Positions 344 to 8,141 of a stretch of DNA of 64,000 bases are shown here, piece by piece (position 1 is the stretch's first letter; every line of letters begins with the position of its first letter). The DNA comes from Cohnella thermotolerans DSM 17683 (GTDB lineage Bacteria > Bacillota > Bacilli > Paenibacillales > Paenibacillaceae), in NCBI RefSeq assembly GCF_000429825.1, contig NZ_AUCP01000013.1, positions 1 to 64,000 on the forward strand, given 5' to 3'. A program made the position numbers and the translations under genes. Below the pieces are notes generated by a model, which saw only the letters and a list, made by a program, of their open reading frames with translations, made no database searches and had not been told where the DNA came from.

Positions 344-1113
344 TTATTTCCGACGTGCTACCATCATTATTTCAATATCATCTAATTCTAATGGTTTTTT
401 GCTAAACTTACCTGCAACACAGCCATATCCCGCCAATACATCAAAACCCGATTCCTCAAACAACAGCTTTAATTCACGAAAAGTAAAACTTGTCGTATAG
501 ATTGTTACTTCTTTCGTTTTACCATCGGGACTTTTTATTATGCTAGGATGAAAACCGGTACAGGAATAAGCATCGAAATTTTTAGGGTCCTTATTGTTTC
601 TCACCGCGCTTAAGGCATTTATCGCAGTCAAAACAATAACGTCCCTGGTTTCAATGCCCTGTGGATACCCCTAAGCACCTTCCGATGATTATCCAAATTA
701 CCAGCTAAACCGAATGCACCTTCACAGAGGCAAATTGCACCATCAAATTTTTGGGAAAAATTCAATTCTCGCGCATCAATAGCATAGAACTCTGCATTTA
801 AACTTTCAGCAGATGCCACTTGAGTAGCGTACTTGATAAATTCCGGGGAAATGTCCACTCCCACGGTACGAAAGCCACGACGTGCCAGTTCCAAACTATG
901 GCGCCCCGGACCGCAACCGATGTCCAAAATATAGCTATTAGCCGAAAGGTCCATCAGCTCTACAAGAAAATCAACCTCTTGAATTGTCCCTTTGGTAAAT
1001 CCATAATTCAAGTAATTTTCCCGGATAAAATCGCCAATTTCTTTGTAGTAACTACCATCAAACTCAAAATTATTTATATTCAACGGTCTTCCCTCCGTGT
1101 TTATTGATTGCAC
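344..1113 (-). pseudogene. Class I SAM-dependent methyltransferase, split by a one-base frameshift
   Basis: The upstream part (1113-628, 161 codons) carries the class I SAM-binding fold: motif I is DIGCGPGRHSLELARRG, followed by an acidic loop GVDIS. It breaks at LKPGTLLF-stop. The downstream part (to 344) continues the same protein in another frame as VIVLTAINALSAVRN and the C-terminal strand region. Restoring one G in the GGG run near 645-650 would give a continuous LKPGDVIVLTAINA of about 255 residues, a normal length. The two pieces overlap by ATGA, which could mimic translational coupling. The region is AT-rich next to an IS element, so transfer and decay are likely; a sequencing error in a homopolymer is the alternative. 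Substrate unknown. Confidence 0.75.
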
Positions 1114-2969: not shown

Positions 2970-3623
2970 TTAGCCGATGACCGCCTGAATAAACTTCTCC
3001 AATACGGTCACATCCGTAATGTTCTTGTTGCAAGCTTCGCTGTTCACGCACACGTAGTTGCCGATCGCCTTGTAATAATCGGGCGATGCGTGCGCCGGCT
3101 TCGACTTGGCAATAGCCGTAAACAAAGCGATCTCCTCGTGCCGATGGCACAAGAAGCAAACGCCCTTCTTGTTCGTTGGGGTATATCTTCCTTCTATGCC
3201 GACGAGCCGGCCGTCCAGATGATAGACGATATACAATTTATTGGTCGCGATATCGGTCCAGCCCAAATACGTGACGTCACGGTAATCGATCGACGCGAGG
3301 GCGGGAACCTTCAGCTTTTTGTTCTTGGGGAACAGCTTCTTGAGCTGCGCTTCCGTCACTTCCCCGAACGCCGTCCTGTATGGCTCGAGCGAATCCACGC
3401 AGGACGGGATTTCATCCGCCGACGGAATCGCCGCTAGCTTCTCCAACGTCGCGATCTGAAGCTCCGTCGCCTCCGGAAACGCTTCGTGCAGCTTGGACTG
3501 GACGGTGTCTCTTACCGATTCCAACACTTTCCGATCGGAGACGGTATTCAAGGCTTTCTTCAGTTGGTCCGCTTGCTTCCGGATCACGTTATATTGATGG
3601 TTTCTAATAAATGGTTTGCACAT
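2970..3623 (-). CDS. FusB/FusC-family EF-G-binding protein (fusidic acid resistance type)
   Basis: The 217-residue product matches staphylococcal FusB (213 residues) along its length. It has an N-terminal HQYNVIRKQADQLKK helix, a central LKKLFPKNKKLKVP segment and GWTDIATNKLYIVY, and a C-terminal treble-clef zinc finger with C156, C159 (CFLC), C192 and C198 (CVNSEAC). FusB proteins bind elongation factor G and release it from fusidic-acid-stalled ribosomes. The ATG at 3623 is chosen because AAGGGG precedes it and homologues start here; the frame is open further upstream but that part is leader. Neighbours are unrelated. Expression is probably controlled by the attenuator at 3600-3766. Resistance itself is inferred from the family; chromosomal homologues may serve another ribosome-rescue role. 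Confidence 0.85.
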   Translation of the reverse strand: MCKPFIRNHQYNVIRKQADQLKKALNTVSDRKVLESVRDTVQSKLHEAFPEATELQIATLEKLAAIPSADEIPSCVDSLEPYRTAFGEVTEAQLKKLFPKNKKLKVPALASIDYRDVTYLGWTDIATNKLYIVYHLDGRLVGIEGRYTPTNKKGVCFLCHRHEEIALFTAIAKSKPAHASPDYYKAIGNYVCVNSEACNKNITDVTVLEKFIQAVIG

Positions 3624-3766
3624 GCTTTTCAGCCCCTTATTTTTATTGGAAGAAAAAAATAAGGTGCAAAGCCCATTATTAGAAACGATATAAGCTTTCT
3701 CGGGCGATTCATCGTAACTCACCGTCCGCCCCATGCAAAGTATCGCCCTAATATCAGGCTTTGCAC
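3600..3766 (-). promoter_or_regulatory. Attenuator with three mutually pairing segments upstream of fusB-like gene
   Basis: In the mRNA, segment 1 (3766-3745) and segment 3 (3621-3600) are near-copies of each other, both starting GUGCAAA. Segment 2 (3686-3664) is their complement, so it can pair with either. The 2:3 hairpin (~21 bp) takes in the fusB start codon's G and the first seven codons; a nested stem (3664-3653 with 3645-3635) pairs the AAGGGG ribosome site with CCUUAUUUUU. The 1:2 hairpin (10 perfect bp from GUGCAAAGCC, then mostly A-U and G-U pairs) would leave the ribosome site free. A third option is a 7-bp local hairpin of segment 1 with 3740-3734. There is no U-run, so control is most likely translational. 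Confidence 0.75.
3635..3664 (-). promoter_or_regulatory. Inner stem hiding the fusB-like ribosome site
   Basis: CCTTATTTTT on one side and AAAAATAAGG on the other form a 10-bp A-U-rich stem. The 3' arm contains the AAGGGG Shine-Dalgarno used by ATG 3623. Confidence 0.65.
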
Positions 3767-3801
3767 GAGTCGTTGCCAGCTCCGGCAAAATGTTTTGCCA
3801 T
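3754..3801 (-). CDS. Leader peptide of the fusB-like gene (15 residues)
   Basis: The reading frame MAKHFAGAGNDSCKA-stop begins at ATG 3801. AAAGGGAGGT (3819-3810) lies 8 nt upstream, a better ribosome site than that of fusB itself. The last codons TGC AAA GCC TGA lie inside segment 1 of the attenuator, so a ribosome finishing this peptide would cover segment 1 and drive segment 2 into the pairing that hides the fusB start. Ribosomes slowed earlier in the peptide would leave segment 1 free. The length and position are like those of erm/cat/fusB leader peptides; the peptide sequence itself is not one I recognise. Confidence 0.7.
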   Translation of the reverse strand: MAKHFAGAGNDSCKA

Positions 3802-3827
3802 CCGTACCGACCTCCCTTTCGCCAACC

Positions 3828-3856
3828 ATTATAAGGGAATCCTTCTCTGCCTGCAA
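3828..3856 (-). promoter_or_regulatory. Promoter of the fusB-like leader
   Basis: TTGCAG (3856-3851), 17 bp, then a perfect TATAAT (3833-3828). Transcription would start near 3821, placing the leader-peptide ribosome site at the very 5' end of the mRNA, as in classical translational attenuators. Confidence 0.65.
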
Positions 3857-4705: not shown

Positions 4706-5671
4706 TTAGAAATCGAATTTGAAATCGTCGTCCGTCAACGGCTCCACGTTGAGCGTACGCACGTAGCCGTTCCCCTTCTTGGAGAAAAAGTCGTGCTGCT
4801 TCGTCTTCGTGCTGATGCCGTTGAACACGATCGGGTTGACGTCCTCTTCCGGGAACACCGGCTCGAGTCCGAGATTCATCATCGCCTTGTTGGCGTTGTA
4901 GCGGACGAACGTCTTCACTTCGCCGGTCAGGCCGACTTCGCCGTACAGCTCCTCGGTGTAGCTCATTTCGTTCTGATGCAGAAATTGCAGCAGCCCGCGC
5001 AGTGTCTCGTACGCATCCTTCTGCTCATCTTCGTCCAGCTCCGCATAGACTTCCTGAGCGAGCACGCCGACATAAACGCCGTGAATGCTCTCGTCGCGCA
5101 GAATGAGGTCGATAATCTCGCCGCTGCTCGTCATTTTGCCCTGGCCCGCCAAGTATAACGGATAGAAGAAGCCGCTGTAGAACAAATAGCTCTCTAGCAG
5201 AACGGAAGCGGCCATCGCCAGGTACAGGTCCTTACGCGACTCGATATTTTTGTAGTATTGGGCGATCGTATCCGCCTTCGTCTGCAGGTAGCGGTTCTCC
5301 TCCACCCAGCGGAAGACGGCGTCGATCTCTTCGGTCGTGGCCAGCGTCGTGAAAATGCTGCTGTACGACTTCGCGTGGATTTGCTCCATCATGCCCATGA
5401 AGCCGAGCACCGCCTTGCGCTGCAAGCCGTCCACGTGCTCGAGAATTTTCGGCATGCCGACGCCGCCCTGCACCGTATCGAGCAGCGTCAACCCGCCCAG
5501 CACTTTCATATAGAGCGTGCGCTCCGCTTCGTTAAGCTCGATCCACGACATCTTGTCGTCGGAGAGCGGAATTTCCTCATCGGTCCAGAACTGCATTAAA
5601 TTCTGGTTCCAGAACATATTCGTATAATCGTCGTCCGGACGGTTCCAGTTGACGGCTTTCATGGCGCACAT
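4706..5671 (-). CDS. nrdF: Class Ib ribonucleotide reductase, beta subunit
   Basis: NrdF carries the dimetal-tyrosyl radical cofactor needed by NrdE to reduce ribonucleoside diphosphates. All metal ligands are visible: D65, E96, H99, E160, E194 and H197, with the radical tyrosine Y103 in HAKSYS. The length of 321 residues is normal. ATG 5671 and ATG 5662 are both possible; AAAGGGG lies 11 nt before the first. It is the last gene of nrdI-nrdE-nrdF, 39 nt after nrdE, and is followed by a hairpin. The metal (manganese with NrdI, or iron) cannot be told from sequence. Confidence 0.97.
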
Positions 5672-5710
5672 GCCGCTTGTTCCCCTTTCGTCCTCGCCTC
5701 GTGCCGCCCG

Positions 5711-7795
5711 TTAAACGGCGCAGCTGACGCAGTTCTCGACGGACAGAATGTTCGTCCGCGTGTAATAGAGGGATTTGAGTCCCTTCTTGGCCGCATAAAT
5801 ATAGTACCGGGCCAACTCTCTCGTCGTCACGTCGCTGTTGACGTGCAGCACCGTCGAGATGCCTTGATCCACGTGCGCTTGAATTTCCGCGATCAGGTCG
5901 ATGACCTTGAATTGATCCATTTGATAAGCCGACTTGTAATAGAAGAAGTTGTCACGGCTCAAAAACGGCATCGGATAATAAGTCGTCGAGTTCGCGTACG
6001 TGCGCGTCTCGATCGGCTCGACGATCGGCATCACGCTGCTCGTCGCGTTCTGGACGTACGAGATGCTCTGCGTCGGCGCGATGGCGAGACGATAAGCATG
6101 GTACAAGCCGTGCTTCTGCACGTCGGCTTGCAGCTTCGCCCAATCGTCCGGCGAAGGAATCGCCATGCCTTCGAACAACGCTTGCACCTTCTCCGTCGTC
6201 GGGCGGTAGTCGGTGTTCTTGTACCGTTCGAAGTACGCACCGCTCGCATATTCGGAACGTTCGAAGCCGGCGAACGTCTGCCCTTTCTCCCGGGCGATCT
6301 CCATGCTTCTCTCGATCGAGTAGAAGTTGACCATCATGAAGAAGGTGCGGACGAAATCCCGCGCTTCCGCGCTTTCGTAAGCGATCCGGTTCTTCGCCAG
6401 GTAGCCGTGCAGATTCATCGCGCCGAGTCCGACCGAGTGCAGCTCCGCATTCGCCTTCGCGACGCCGGGCGCGTTCGAAATGTTCGTCATATCGCTGACC
6501 GCGGTAAGCGCCGTAATGCCCTCGTGCACCGATTCGCGGATTTTGCGGCGTTCCATGACGTTCGCGATGTTCAGCGACGCCAGGTTGCAGCTGATGTCGC
6601 GGCGAATGATGTCCGGCTCGCCGTAATCGCCGATCTCGGAAGTCTCCTGCAATTGGAAAATTTCCGTGCACAAATTGGACATCTTGATGGTGCCGATGCC
6701 TTTGAGCGCATGATCCTTGTTCGCGTTGGAGCGGTTCATAATGTACGGATAGCCCGATTCGAGCTGGATCGTCGCGATCTTGGTCAGCATGTCCCGCGCG
6801 CTGAGCACGGCTTTCTTCTTGACGCGGTCGTCCGCCAGAAGCGTCTCGTACATCTCGTCCATGTTCATGTCGTCCAGGTGGACGCCGTATGCTTTATGCA
6901 CGGAATGAGGTCCGAAAACGTGCAGCGGCTCGTTCCGCGCCGCAAGCTCGTAGAACTTGTTCGGCACGATCAGGCCGATGGACAGCGTCTTCAGGCGCGT
7001 CTTCTCGTCGGCGTTAATCTTCTTGCTGTCGAGGAACTCCATGACGTCCCAGCCGAAAATATTGTAGTAGCCGGCGCCGGAACCTTTGCGTTGGCCCATC
7101 TGGTCGGCATAGGAGAATGCGTCCTCCAACAGCTTGAGCACCGGCATGATGCCTTTGGCGGCGCCTTCGACGCCCTTGATCGGCTCGCCGCGCCCGCGCA
7201 GCTTGGACAAGTTGACGGCGACGCCTCCGCCGATTTTGGACAGCTGCATGCACGTGCTCAACACATAGTTGATCGAGTTGAGCGAGTCGTCCATCTCGAG
7301 CAGGAAGCACGACACCATCTCGCCCCGGCGGCTCTTGCCCGCGTTCAGGAACGTCGGCGTCGCCGGCTGTACGCGCTGCTCCATCATCGCGGACGCCAGC
7401 TTGAGCGCCGTCGCTACGTCGCCGCGGCCGAGATGCAGGGCGACGATCGCCACGCGGTCCGGATAATGCTCGAGGTACAGCGACTTGTCGTTGCTCTTCA
7501 CCGCGTAGTCGGTATAAAACTTCGAAGCGGCCATATAAGACTGGAAGCGGAAATCGTAGCTGTGCGTCAGCGCATAGACTTCCTCGACCTCCGAAGGGGA
7601 ATAATGCTCGTATACGTCCTCGTAATAGTCCTCGTCGATCATGTAACGGACTTTCTCGGCCGTGTTCGCGAACTTCAAGCTTTTGCGCTCCACTTCGGCC
7701 ATGAACGCTTCGACGGCCTCGCGATCTTTATCCAATTGGAAGAAGCCGTCCGCATCGCGCTGCATGAGCAAATTGTTCAATTCAATATGACGCAA
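5711..7795 (-). CDS. nrdE: Class Ib ribonucleotide reductase, alpha subunit
   Basis: This is the catalytic subunit, 694 residues. The active-site cysteines C163 (VSCFLLEM) and C403 (ISCNLASLN) form the redox pair, the thiyl-radical site is N374-C376-E378 (SNLCTE), and the C-terminal CVSC (C689/C692) passes electrons from a NrdH-type redoxin or thioredoxin. No nrdH gene is in the window. As usual for class Ib there is no ATP-cone. It overlaps nrdI by 14 nt, implying translational coupling. Confidence 0.97.
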   Translation of the reverse strand: MRHIELNNLLMQRDADGFFQLDKDREAVEAFMAEVERKSLKFANTAEKVRYMIDEDYYEDVYEHYSPSEVEEVYALTHSYDFRFQSYMAASKFYTDYAVKSNDKSLYLEHYPDRVAIVALHLGRGDVATALKLASAMMEQRVQPATPTFLNAGKSRRGEMVSCFLLEMDDSLNSINYVLSTCMQLSKIGGGVAVNLSKLRGRGEPIKGVEGAAKGIMPVLKLLEDAFSYADQMGQRKGSGAGYYNIFGWDVMEFLDSKKINADEKTRLKTLSIGLIVPNKFYELAARNEPLHVFGPHSVHKAYGVHLDDMNMDEMYETLLADDRVKKKAVLSARDMLTKIATIQLESGYPYIMNRSNANKDHALKGIGTIKMSNLCTEIFQLQETSEIGDYGEPDIIRRDISCNLASLNIANVMERRKIRESVHEGITALTAVSDMTNISNAPGVAKANAELHSVGLGAMNLHGYLAKNRIAYESAEARDFVRTFFMMVNFYSIERSMEIAREKGQTFAGFERSEYASGAYFERYKNTDYRPTTEKVQALFEGMAIPSPDDWAKLQADVQKHGLYHAYRLAIAPTQSISYVQNATSSVMPIVEPIETRTYANSTTYYPMPFLSRDNFFYYKSAYQMDQFKVIDLIAEIQAHVDQGISTVLHVNSDVTTRELARYYIYAAKKGLKSLYYTRTNILSVENCVSCAV

Positions 7796-8141
7796 CTGCC
7801 TTCACCTCTCTCAGAAATGTCTCGACGTCCTTCGTCGTGCCCGACAACTCGAACTTGCTCAGTACGGGCACGCCGTACATCCGTGAAATATGGTCCGCGC
7901 TCATGGCGAACCTCTCGCCCCAGTTGCGGTTGCCGCTGGCCGACACGCCCCGCATTTTGTCGTGGTTGCGCTGGAGGAACGACAGCACCTTCGCGGGCGT
8001 CTGGCCGAAGCCCGTCGTGTATGTAACGAGAACGAACGGCTCGTCAAGCACCGTGTTCTCTTCGATTTGAACGGACGGAAGATCGAGCTTGCGAATGAAT
8101 CTCTTCACATTTCCGGTTCTCGAATCGTAAGCAATCAACAT
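7782..8141 (-). CDS. nrdI: NrdI flavodoxin-like activator of class Ib RNR
   Basis: A 119-residue flavodoxin-fold protein starting MLIAYDSRTGNVKRFIRKL, where the SRTGNVKRF loop binds the FMN phosphate. NrdI supplies superoxide/peroxide to assemble the manganese-tyrosyl cofactor of NrdF. It is the first gene of the operon; its promoter region with NrdR boxes lies at 8363-8417. The glycine-rich GNRNWG segment is typical of NrdI. Confidence 0.95.
   Translation of the reverse strand: MLIAYDSRTGNVKRFIRKLDLPSVQIEENTVLDEPFVLVTYTTGFGQTPAKVLSFLQRNHDKMRGVSASGNRNWGERFAMSADHISRMYGVPVLSKFELSGTTKDVETFLREVKAVASY

Follow-up and report, generated by a model that had tools for sequence, protein, structure and literature searches.

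A conserved leader element upstream of fusB-family genes in Cohnella thermotolerans and other Bacillota, a probable translational attenuator that senses ribosome position

In a 64,000-nucleotide stretch of the Cohnella thermotolerans DSM 17683 genome (hereafter the window), a fusB-family gene on the minus strand (2970-3623) is preceded by a short leader open reading frame (ORF) and by a set of RNA strands that can pair with one another in mutually exclusive ways. We conclude that this conserved element is probably a translational attenuator that senses where a ribosome stands on the leader ORF. Its switching strand, A (CTCGTGCAAAGCC, 3757-3769), lies at the end of the leader ORF and can pair either with a decoy arm, B (CTTTGCATGGGG, 3729-3740), or with a strand closer to the gene, C2 (GGCTTTGCAC, 3664-3673); A stays complementary to both, with covariation. 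C2 would be held by A in the proposed on state and would pair with the fusB start region in the proposed off state. All features of the element lie on the minus strand, and coordinates are window positions.

A sequence-only reading of the window had described an attenuator with three related segments, the middle one complementary to the two others. This complementarity was borne out, with duplex energies of -25.1 kcal/mol for segments 1 and 2 and -23.2 kcal/mol for segments 2 and 3. The double complementarity is not due to chance: of 1000 dinucleotide-shuffled versions of the region, one equalled the upstream pairing, three equalled the downstream one and none equalled both. The 271-nt region is also more stable than its shuffles (z -2.86, 2/200 as good), and the whole region of the relatives gave z-scores of -3.44 (n = 42) and -2.27 (n = 28) against mononucleotide shuffles when every third sequence was folded. 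The three segments were not the full inventory: the reading had omitted B (3740-3729), which sits between segments 1 and 2 and is the partner with which segment 1 covaries most clearly, and also a helix, P2 (5′ strand GGGCGAT, 3742-3748; 3′ strand ATCGCCC, 3702-3708). A and B are complementary over 11-12 pairs. The 5′ end of A pairs with B only, its middle with both partners and its 3′ end with C2 only. P2 and A:B cannot be nested. Closer to the gene, C1 (TATCGTTTCTAAT, 3678-3690) can pair with D (ATTAGAAAC, 3600-3608), a complement of part of C1 inside the fusB coding start, and a local hairpin, P5, joins an anti-Shine-Dalgarno strand (CCTTATTTTT, 3655-3664) to a strand (AAAAATAAGG, 3635-3644) that overlaps the fusB Shine-Dalgarno sequence (SD; AAGGGG, 3633-3638).

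Relatives of the leader were taken from 197 related genomes, 135 of which had a FusB match. From 140 match rows, 137 upstream regions were used and oriented (the rows omitted were a partial match in G195 and the two fragments of a disrupted gene in G087), and strand anchors were found in 125 of them; counts given below out of 125 thus omit 12 of the 137. The sequence-only reading had staked its attenuator on covariation among related leaders, and covariation is present in both alignments. In the first, A1 (70 of the 125 rows after a similarity filter), A:B is 99.5% paired and A:C2 99.8%, with changes on both sides at 4 pairs and at 1 pair, respectively. In A3, a class-wide alignment of 97 matches that came from 96 hand-chosen loci and was fitted to a structure with A:C2, P2 and P5 but not A:B, pairing amounts to 95.0% for A:B (6/12 pairs changed on both sides), 99.5% for A:C2 (4/8), 90.9% for P2 (5/7) and 95.7% for P5 (3/7). 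The A:B count on A3 is free of fitting bias because A:B was absent from the structure that made this alignment. For each whole structure (A:B, A:C2, P2 and P5, on A1 and A3), 0/500 shuffles, which leave relatedness in, equalled the real alignment in percentage paired or in covariation score.

When the partners were slid by 1-3 columns, pairing dropped to 31-56%. Changes on both sides numbered 9 versus 4-8 in the slid controls (A1) and 6 versus 0-4 (A3) for the A:B structure, and 12 versus 5-8 for the A:C2 structure on A3; measured against slid controls, such counts are less decisive than the pairing and covariation scores. RNAalifold run on A1 alone picked A:B. With rigid anchors over the 125 rows, the observed pairing was reached by 0/300 shuffles for A:B and by 1/300 each for C1:D and P5. 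Neither P2 (91/300) nor A:C2 alone (98/300) exceeded its shuffles in this assay, in the latter case because A:C2 hardly varies. Another candidate helix, P2a with C1 pairing, is 86.1% paired, yet 191/300 shuffles reach this value and it was discarded.

The leader ORF (MAKHFAGAGNDSCKA, 3754-3801) has 15 codons followed by TGA and is preceded by its own SD (AAAGGGAGGT, 3810-3819), as the sequence-only reading had it, and the stop codon (3756-3754) does lie within segment 1. With the SD visible and both the ORF and its spacing conserved among relatives, the leader is predicted to be translated. An ORF was found in 125/125 relatives, which is no evidence by itself because the finding rule was permissive; the spacing and the 110/125 relatives with ATG as leader start count instead. 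The distance from the start codon to A is 31, 32 or 35 nt in 114/125 relatives, and in further loci (partly Paenibacillales; scored in 117/118) it peaks at 37 nt (69/117). The frame in which A is read, on the other hand, splits 80/41/4 among the 125 relatives, and their leader stops fall anywhere from 13 to 78 nt past the start of A, in 35/125 beyond the start of B. Because the start-to-A spacing is tight while frame and stop drift, it seems to be the RNA geometry and not the peptide that is conserved, and the leader would act as a ruler.

A small hairpin, P0 (3784-3799), covers the leader start codon by pairing GGCAAAA (3799-3793) with TTTTGCC (3790-3784); a 5-bp version of it occurs in 107/125 relatives compared with a shuffled mean of 7.3 and a maximum of 13. 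Further upstream, the TATAAT on which the sequence-only reading had based a promoter is present at 3833-3828, with a 17-nt spacing from a weak -35-like hexamer, TTGCAG (3851-3856), which by reading matches the consensus at 3/6 positions. A standard promoter scan of the locus listed no promoter because this hexamer falls below the required 4/6 matches per hexamer. A -10-like hexamer lies 22-60 nt 5′ of the leader start in 122/125 relatives versus 32/125 when each sequence was mononucleotide-shuffled once, and in 115 of the 122 the best -35 has 1-3 mismatches.

The effect of ribosome position was modelled with a 30-nt ribosome footprint and pseudoknot-free folding. In free folding of the window sequence, A:B has a probability of 0.88 and A:C2 of 0.07. 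A:B stands at 0.94 while the P-site is on codon 1 or 2, and at codon 1 A:C2 is 0.00 and C1:D 0.99. At codon 7 the distribution is different, with A:B at 0.11, A:C2 at 0.86 and C1:D at 0.14, and from codon 9 onward the ribosome covers A and C1:D stays at or above 0.97. Of the 125 relatives, 123 have A:C2 above 0.5 once the leading edge of the ribosome is placed 3 nt into A, and 110 once it is 6 nt in; from 9 nt on, none does. Duplex energies point the same way: full-length A prefers B in 105/125 relatives and A lacking its first 5 nt prefers C2 in 125/125, a preference that follows from the geometry of A, whose 5′ end serves B only. The sequence-only reading had proposed that ribosomes slowed early in the leader leave segment 1 free to hold segment 2. 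Its mutually exclusive attenuator stands, but segment 1 is not simply freed, because the nearby arm B can pair with it and in the model does so (the 0.94 at codon 1 or 2).

We infer that the A:B state is the default and is off, that the A:C2 state is on, that the relevant pause falls near codon 7 and that fusidic acid, or translation stress more generally, is the signal. In the off state A would be folded with the nearby B, and C2 and its flanks would fold over the fusB start, around P5. A ribosome that has reached the end of a short leader would cover A and again leave C2 to close the start. During slow elongation, a ribosome pausing around codon 7 would cover only the first nucleotides of A, which are needed by B and not by C2; A could then move from B to C2, perhaps aided by P2. 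With C2 pulled off the start region, the ribosome that initiates on fusB would have only the small hairpin P5 to open, and the FusB so produced would clear stalled EF-G. The general slowing of translocation by fusidic acid would increase ribosome occupancy near codon 7 with no special codon needed.

Several results weigh against this mechanism. In the window sequence A:C2 reaches only 0.16 at codon 8 (C1:D 0.80), and at codon 7 the switch rests on the ensemble because the single best structure still keeps A:B and C1:D. Pseudoknot-free folding without a ribosome puts A on C2, not on B, in 101/125 relatives, so an off default in the absence of a ribosome would need a P2 pseudoknot or an effect of folding order; this outcome of the model would fit the simpler scheme of the sequence-only reading better than a switch at the edge of A. 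The cost of opening the start in the ribosome-free relatives likewise equals that in the proposed on state (11.84 versus 11.85 kcal/mol). The start region is only 2.17 (sd 3.12) kcal/mol costlier to open with A covered (edge at +15) than with A on C2 (edge at +3); the difference has the expected sign in 100/125 relatives and exceeds 1.5 in 66/125. Computed on every second sequence (63 of 125), the unpaired probability of the fusB SD averages 0.20, 0.26 and 0.23 over the three states modelled, low throughout because P5 persists. Pairing of segment 2 with segment 3 had been proposed to bury the fusB ribosome site and start, and its pairing with segment 1 to free them; the freeing has partial support at best, since it is chiefly the local hairpin P5 that buries the SD, in all of these modelled states. 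The pairing of C2 with the spacer between SD and fusB start shows a modest tendency (mean z -0.48, n = 124, and -0.80, n = 82), with p of 0.05 or below in 4/124 and 10/82 sequences where 6.2 and 4.1 are expected. On A1, changes on both sides of the A:C2 structure show no excess (6 versus 3-7 in slid controls). Finally, C1:D is 85.6% paired over the 125 rows but broken in some lineages, and we no longer regard it as a universal off helix.

That the modelled switch requires a pause near codon 7 could also be read in favor of an Erm-type attenuator, in which a specific arrest peptide together with a drug stalls the ribosome at a set codon, and the first residues of the leaders are indeed alike within groups (MANHFAG..., MAIRDCRIG...). 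There are, however, at least three kinds of leader N-terminus overall, and the shared motif TTGCCGG stands in different frames in two of the groups (by reading). The likeness of the N-termini can be explained by the P0 hairpin (107/125), which occupies the same first nucleotides, and with the frame through A split 80/41/4 and the stops spread from A+13 to A+78, frame, N-terminus and stop all drift. We have therefore rejected peptide-specific arrest as the main mechanism and consider it unlikely, though the best of the alternatives to a sensor of ribosome position.

Slightly less probable still is that A:C2 and a U-rich tract form an intrinsic terminator, so that the switch would act on transcript elongation. 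In the window C2 is followed by CCTTATTTTTTT, and 55/125 relatives have 6 or more T in 8 positions there. A run of 5 or more T is found in only 19/125, though (7 in this window), and CCTTATT is accounted for by P5, which covaries. The A:C2 hairpin would have a loop of ~83 nt, and termination upon stalling of an upstream ribosome would switch a rescue gene off. As the U-tract is not conserved, we rejected the terminator.

The gene behind the element in the window encodes a 217-amino-acid EF-G-binding protein starting at 3623. It matches the EF-G-binding N-terminal domain PF07299 (62.5 bits, cut-off 27.1) and the FBP C-terminal zinc finger PF16571 (46.6 bits, cut-off 27.2) and is similar to FusB chains in the PDB (E about 1e-26), which upholds its original assignment as fusB-like. 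Against the NCBIfam resistance-grade models fusB, fusC, fusD and fusF it scores 93-98 bits where the cut-offs are 375-450; because these scores are so far below the cut-offs, we make no claim of fusidic acid resistance. A FusB lengthened at its N-terminus by the frame open as far as 3788 is disfavoured, since SD and start codon are at the present position in nearly all relatives (by reading).

A gene-blind DNA pattern scan over a collection of 84,980 species gave at least 119 stretches, and phmmer searches of the ORFs within 2.6 kb identified the genes behind them. Among the pattern matches listed, the gene behind was fusB or CD3324 in 118 of 118 judged: 53 have fusB directly, 50 have CD3324 then fusB, and 15 have CD3324 only. 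A set of 80 comprises 36, 33 and 11 of these arrangements, respectively; in 6 of the 11 without visible fusB, less than 1.1 kb follows the element, too short for a whole fusB. The other 39 comprise 17, 17 and 4, plus one unjudged match (L314), which ends at the locus edge. A further 40 model matches were made up of 18 with CD3324 then fusB, 12 with CD3324 only, 6 with fusB directly and 4 with another arrangement. Two of the last (L192 and L195) begin CD3324-like but have no 55-amino-acid ORF there, and L195 has fusB next; the other two (L224, 27.5 bits, and L225, 26.0 bits) look like chance matches and were set aside. The genes behind L224 and L225 resemble a sugar-operon antiterminator and a phosphotransferase system gene. 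CD3324 corresponds to NCBIfam NF040785 (three proteins at 109-114 bits, cut-off 65) and, with a weak match to the Mor activator, appears to be a small helix-turn-helix/Mor-like, regulator-like gene. We very much doubt that the element is a non-ribosomal device, a structured leader that senses a ligand or a protein such as CD3324 and in which the ORF is incidental: its structure is better conserved than the peptide and CD3324 stands directly behind it in 65 of the 118 judged matches listed, but the start codon and the tight spacing to A are kept, and the other 53 have fusB immediately behind the element with no CD3324 between.

The element precedes fusB in 128 of the 137 upstream regions, 125 found by the anchors and three more by model R2 (L066, 74.1 bits; L122, 55.5 bits; L126, a weak, partial match of ~80 nt at 31.7 bits), and the remaining 9 have no match by anchors or R2. 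Model R1, a covariance model built on 70 leaders, matched in 307/392 genomes of the window's order and in 71/299 genomes of the class, 45 of these 71 lying outside the order. R2 matched in 12/398 genomes of the phylum, the window's own genome included. One of the 12, G426, lies outside the class; its element stands in front of a CD3324-type gene and shows compensating changes in A:B, A:C2 and P2 (reading of locus L358). A match in G448 (29.3 bits) lies inside a coding region and was rejected as an apparent chance match. R2 also gave a weak match upstream of a distant FusB (L147, 20.0 bits). The genera among the pattern matches listed include Paenibacillus, Cohnella, Brevibacillus, Bacillus, Metabacillus, Cytobacillus, Peribacillus, Neobacillus, Sporosarcina and Virgibacillus. 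The sequence-only reading knew of no description of the arrangement for Paenibacillaceae; we too found no earlier description in the accessible literature, but the element extends beyond that family.

A more far-reaching idea, which we put forward tentatively and would not expect to hold in full, is that the element is one ancient, frame-indifferent translation-stress sensor of Bacillota that drives a rescue module of FusB and CD3324. CD3324 would then be to Bacillota what WhiB7 is elsewhere, a regulator produced only under slowed translation that activates further protective genes. If so, its targets may include the genes for a ribosome-protection-like GTPase, an esterase and an acetyltransferase that lie behind some CD3324-only copies.

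The surroundings of several CD3324 copies can be described as follows. Locus L187 (positions 127-2739, counted from the start of the element) has, behind a CD3324-only copy, a 360-amino-acid ORF with no NCBIfam match and then a GTPase, a partial ORF whose best match is to tetracycline ribosome-protection proteins (389 bits, cut-off 775). In L186 and L193 the second ORF behind CD3324-only copies is an esterase that resembles the LipP1 and chloramphenicol hydrolase models, and in L275 and L285 (Virgibacillus litoralis) it is a GNAT-like acetyltransferase; the proteins scored, from L193 and L275, were below the cut-offs. In L194 (G1026; 2601-2736 and 3366-3501, minus strand) the element and CD3324 form a tandem duplicate, 765 nt apart and followed by fusB, and the two copies have identical sequence over the 70 amino acids shown.

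Elsewhere in the window, a strong inverted repeat (2878-2923) lies between the ends of fusB and a convergent plus-strand gene and has the look of a terminator common to both. At 344-1113 (minus strand) two ORFs overlap in different frames, perhaps through a frameshift, and together make up what we take to be one methyltransferase, and the ORFs at 4706-8141 (minus strand) presumably form a class Ib ribonucleotide reductase operon.

At gathering scores, Rfam 15 has no family in the window, and in 12 loci (10 with the element, plus L226 and L228) it gave two matches to miRNA models, far below threshold and with E up to 0.5. We found no description of the element in the literature on fusB regulation or CD3324, a search to which subscription papers were mostly closed, and nothing relevant on the CD3324 family. 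A 2025 review states that how expression of FusB homologues is regulated is unknown (PMC12493156). The element offers a concrete, testable answer with a defined set of strands. It ties the CD3324 family to a fusB-type leader and would explain how native resistance-type genes are switched on in soil bacteria related to Bacillus and Paenibacillus.

The closest known system is the established translational attenuator of fusB on the staphylococcal plasmid pUB101, where fusidic acid induces expression via ribosomes stalled on the leader according to the accessible parts of PMC12008383, PMC3352095 and PMC12493156; the sequence-only reading had likewise named staphylococcal fusB as attenuation-controlled. 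The two systems share the gene family, a leader sequence and alternative mRNA structures. The pUB101 gene differs in being plasmid-borne, its FusB is 28.8% identical to that of the window, and its descriptions, as far as those parts of the three papers go, mention no arm like B and no helix like P2. By eye, the pUB101 leader (L228, about 1055-1200) contains three competing segments and a short ORF whose stop lies beside the first. Neither this S. aureus locus nor the one Listeria fusB locus scanned (L226) has an R1 or R2 match, and we do not treat their leaders as homologues.

The Listeria RNAs Rli53, Rli59 and rli80 also combine a short leader ORF and alternative folds with a resistance-type gene downstream, and ribosome stalling is shown or postulated for them in PMC8079631 and PMC6310831; they differ, on the same sources, in acting by transcription termination and in preceding ABC-type genes (lmo0919, lmo1652) or hflXr, not fusB. 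WhiB7 likewise has a leader ORF that senses translation stress before a regulator gene. A leader ORF of this kind is also described for topAI (PMC12121999). These are likened to the window element by description; they belong to other phyla and are other RNAs. In trp-type attenuators a chain of strands 1-2-3-4 is off when paired as 1:2 and 3:4 and on when paired as 2:3, and the chain B-A-C2-start corresponds to it strand by strand. Unlike the trp type, the window element is translational and has its decoy B after A, so that switching requires a ribosome that overlaps no more than the edge of A. By its predicted workings, then, the element is like the fusB attenuator of pUB101 without being a detectable homologue of that leader, and it differs in the decoy arm, the frame-indifferent leader, the breadth of distribution and the partner CD3324: an attenuator design in which an RNA ruler, and not a peptide, appears to be conserved.

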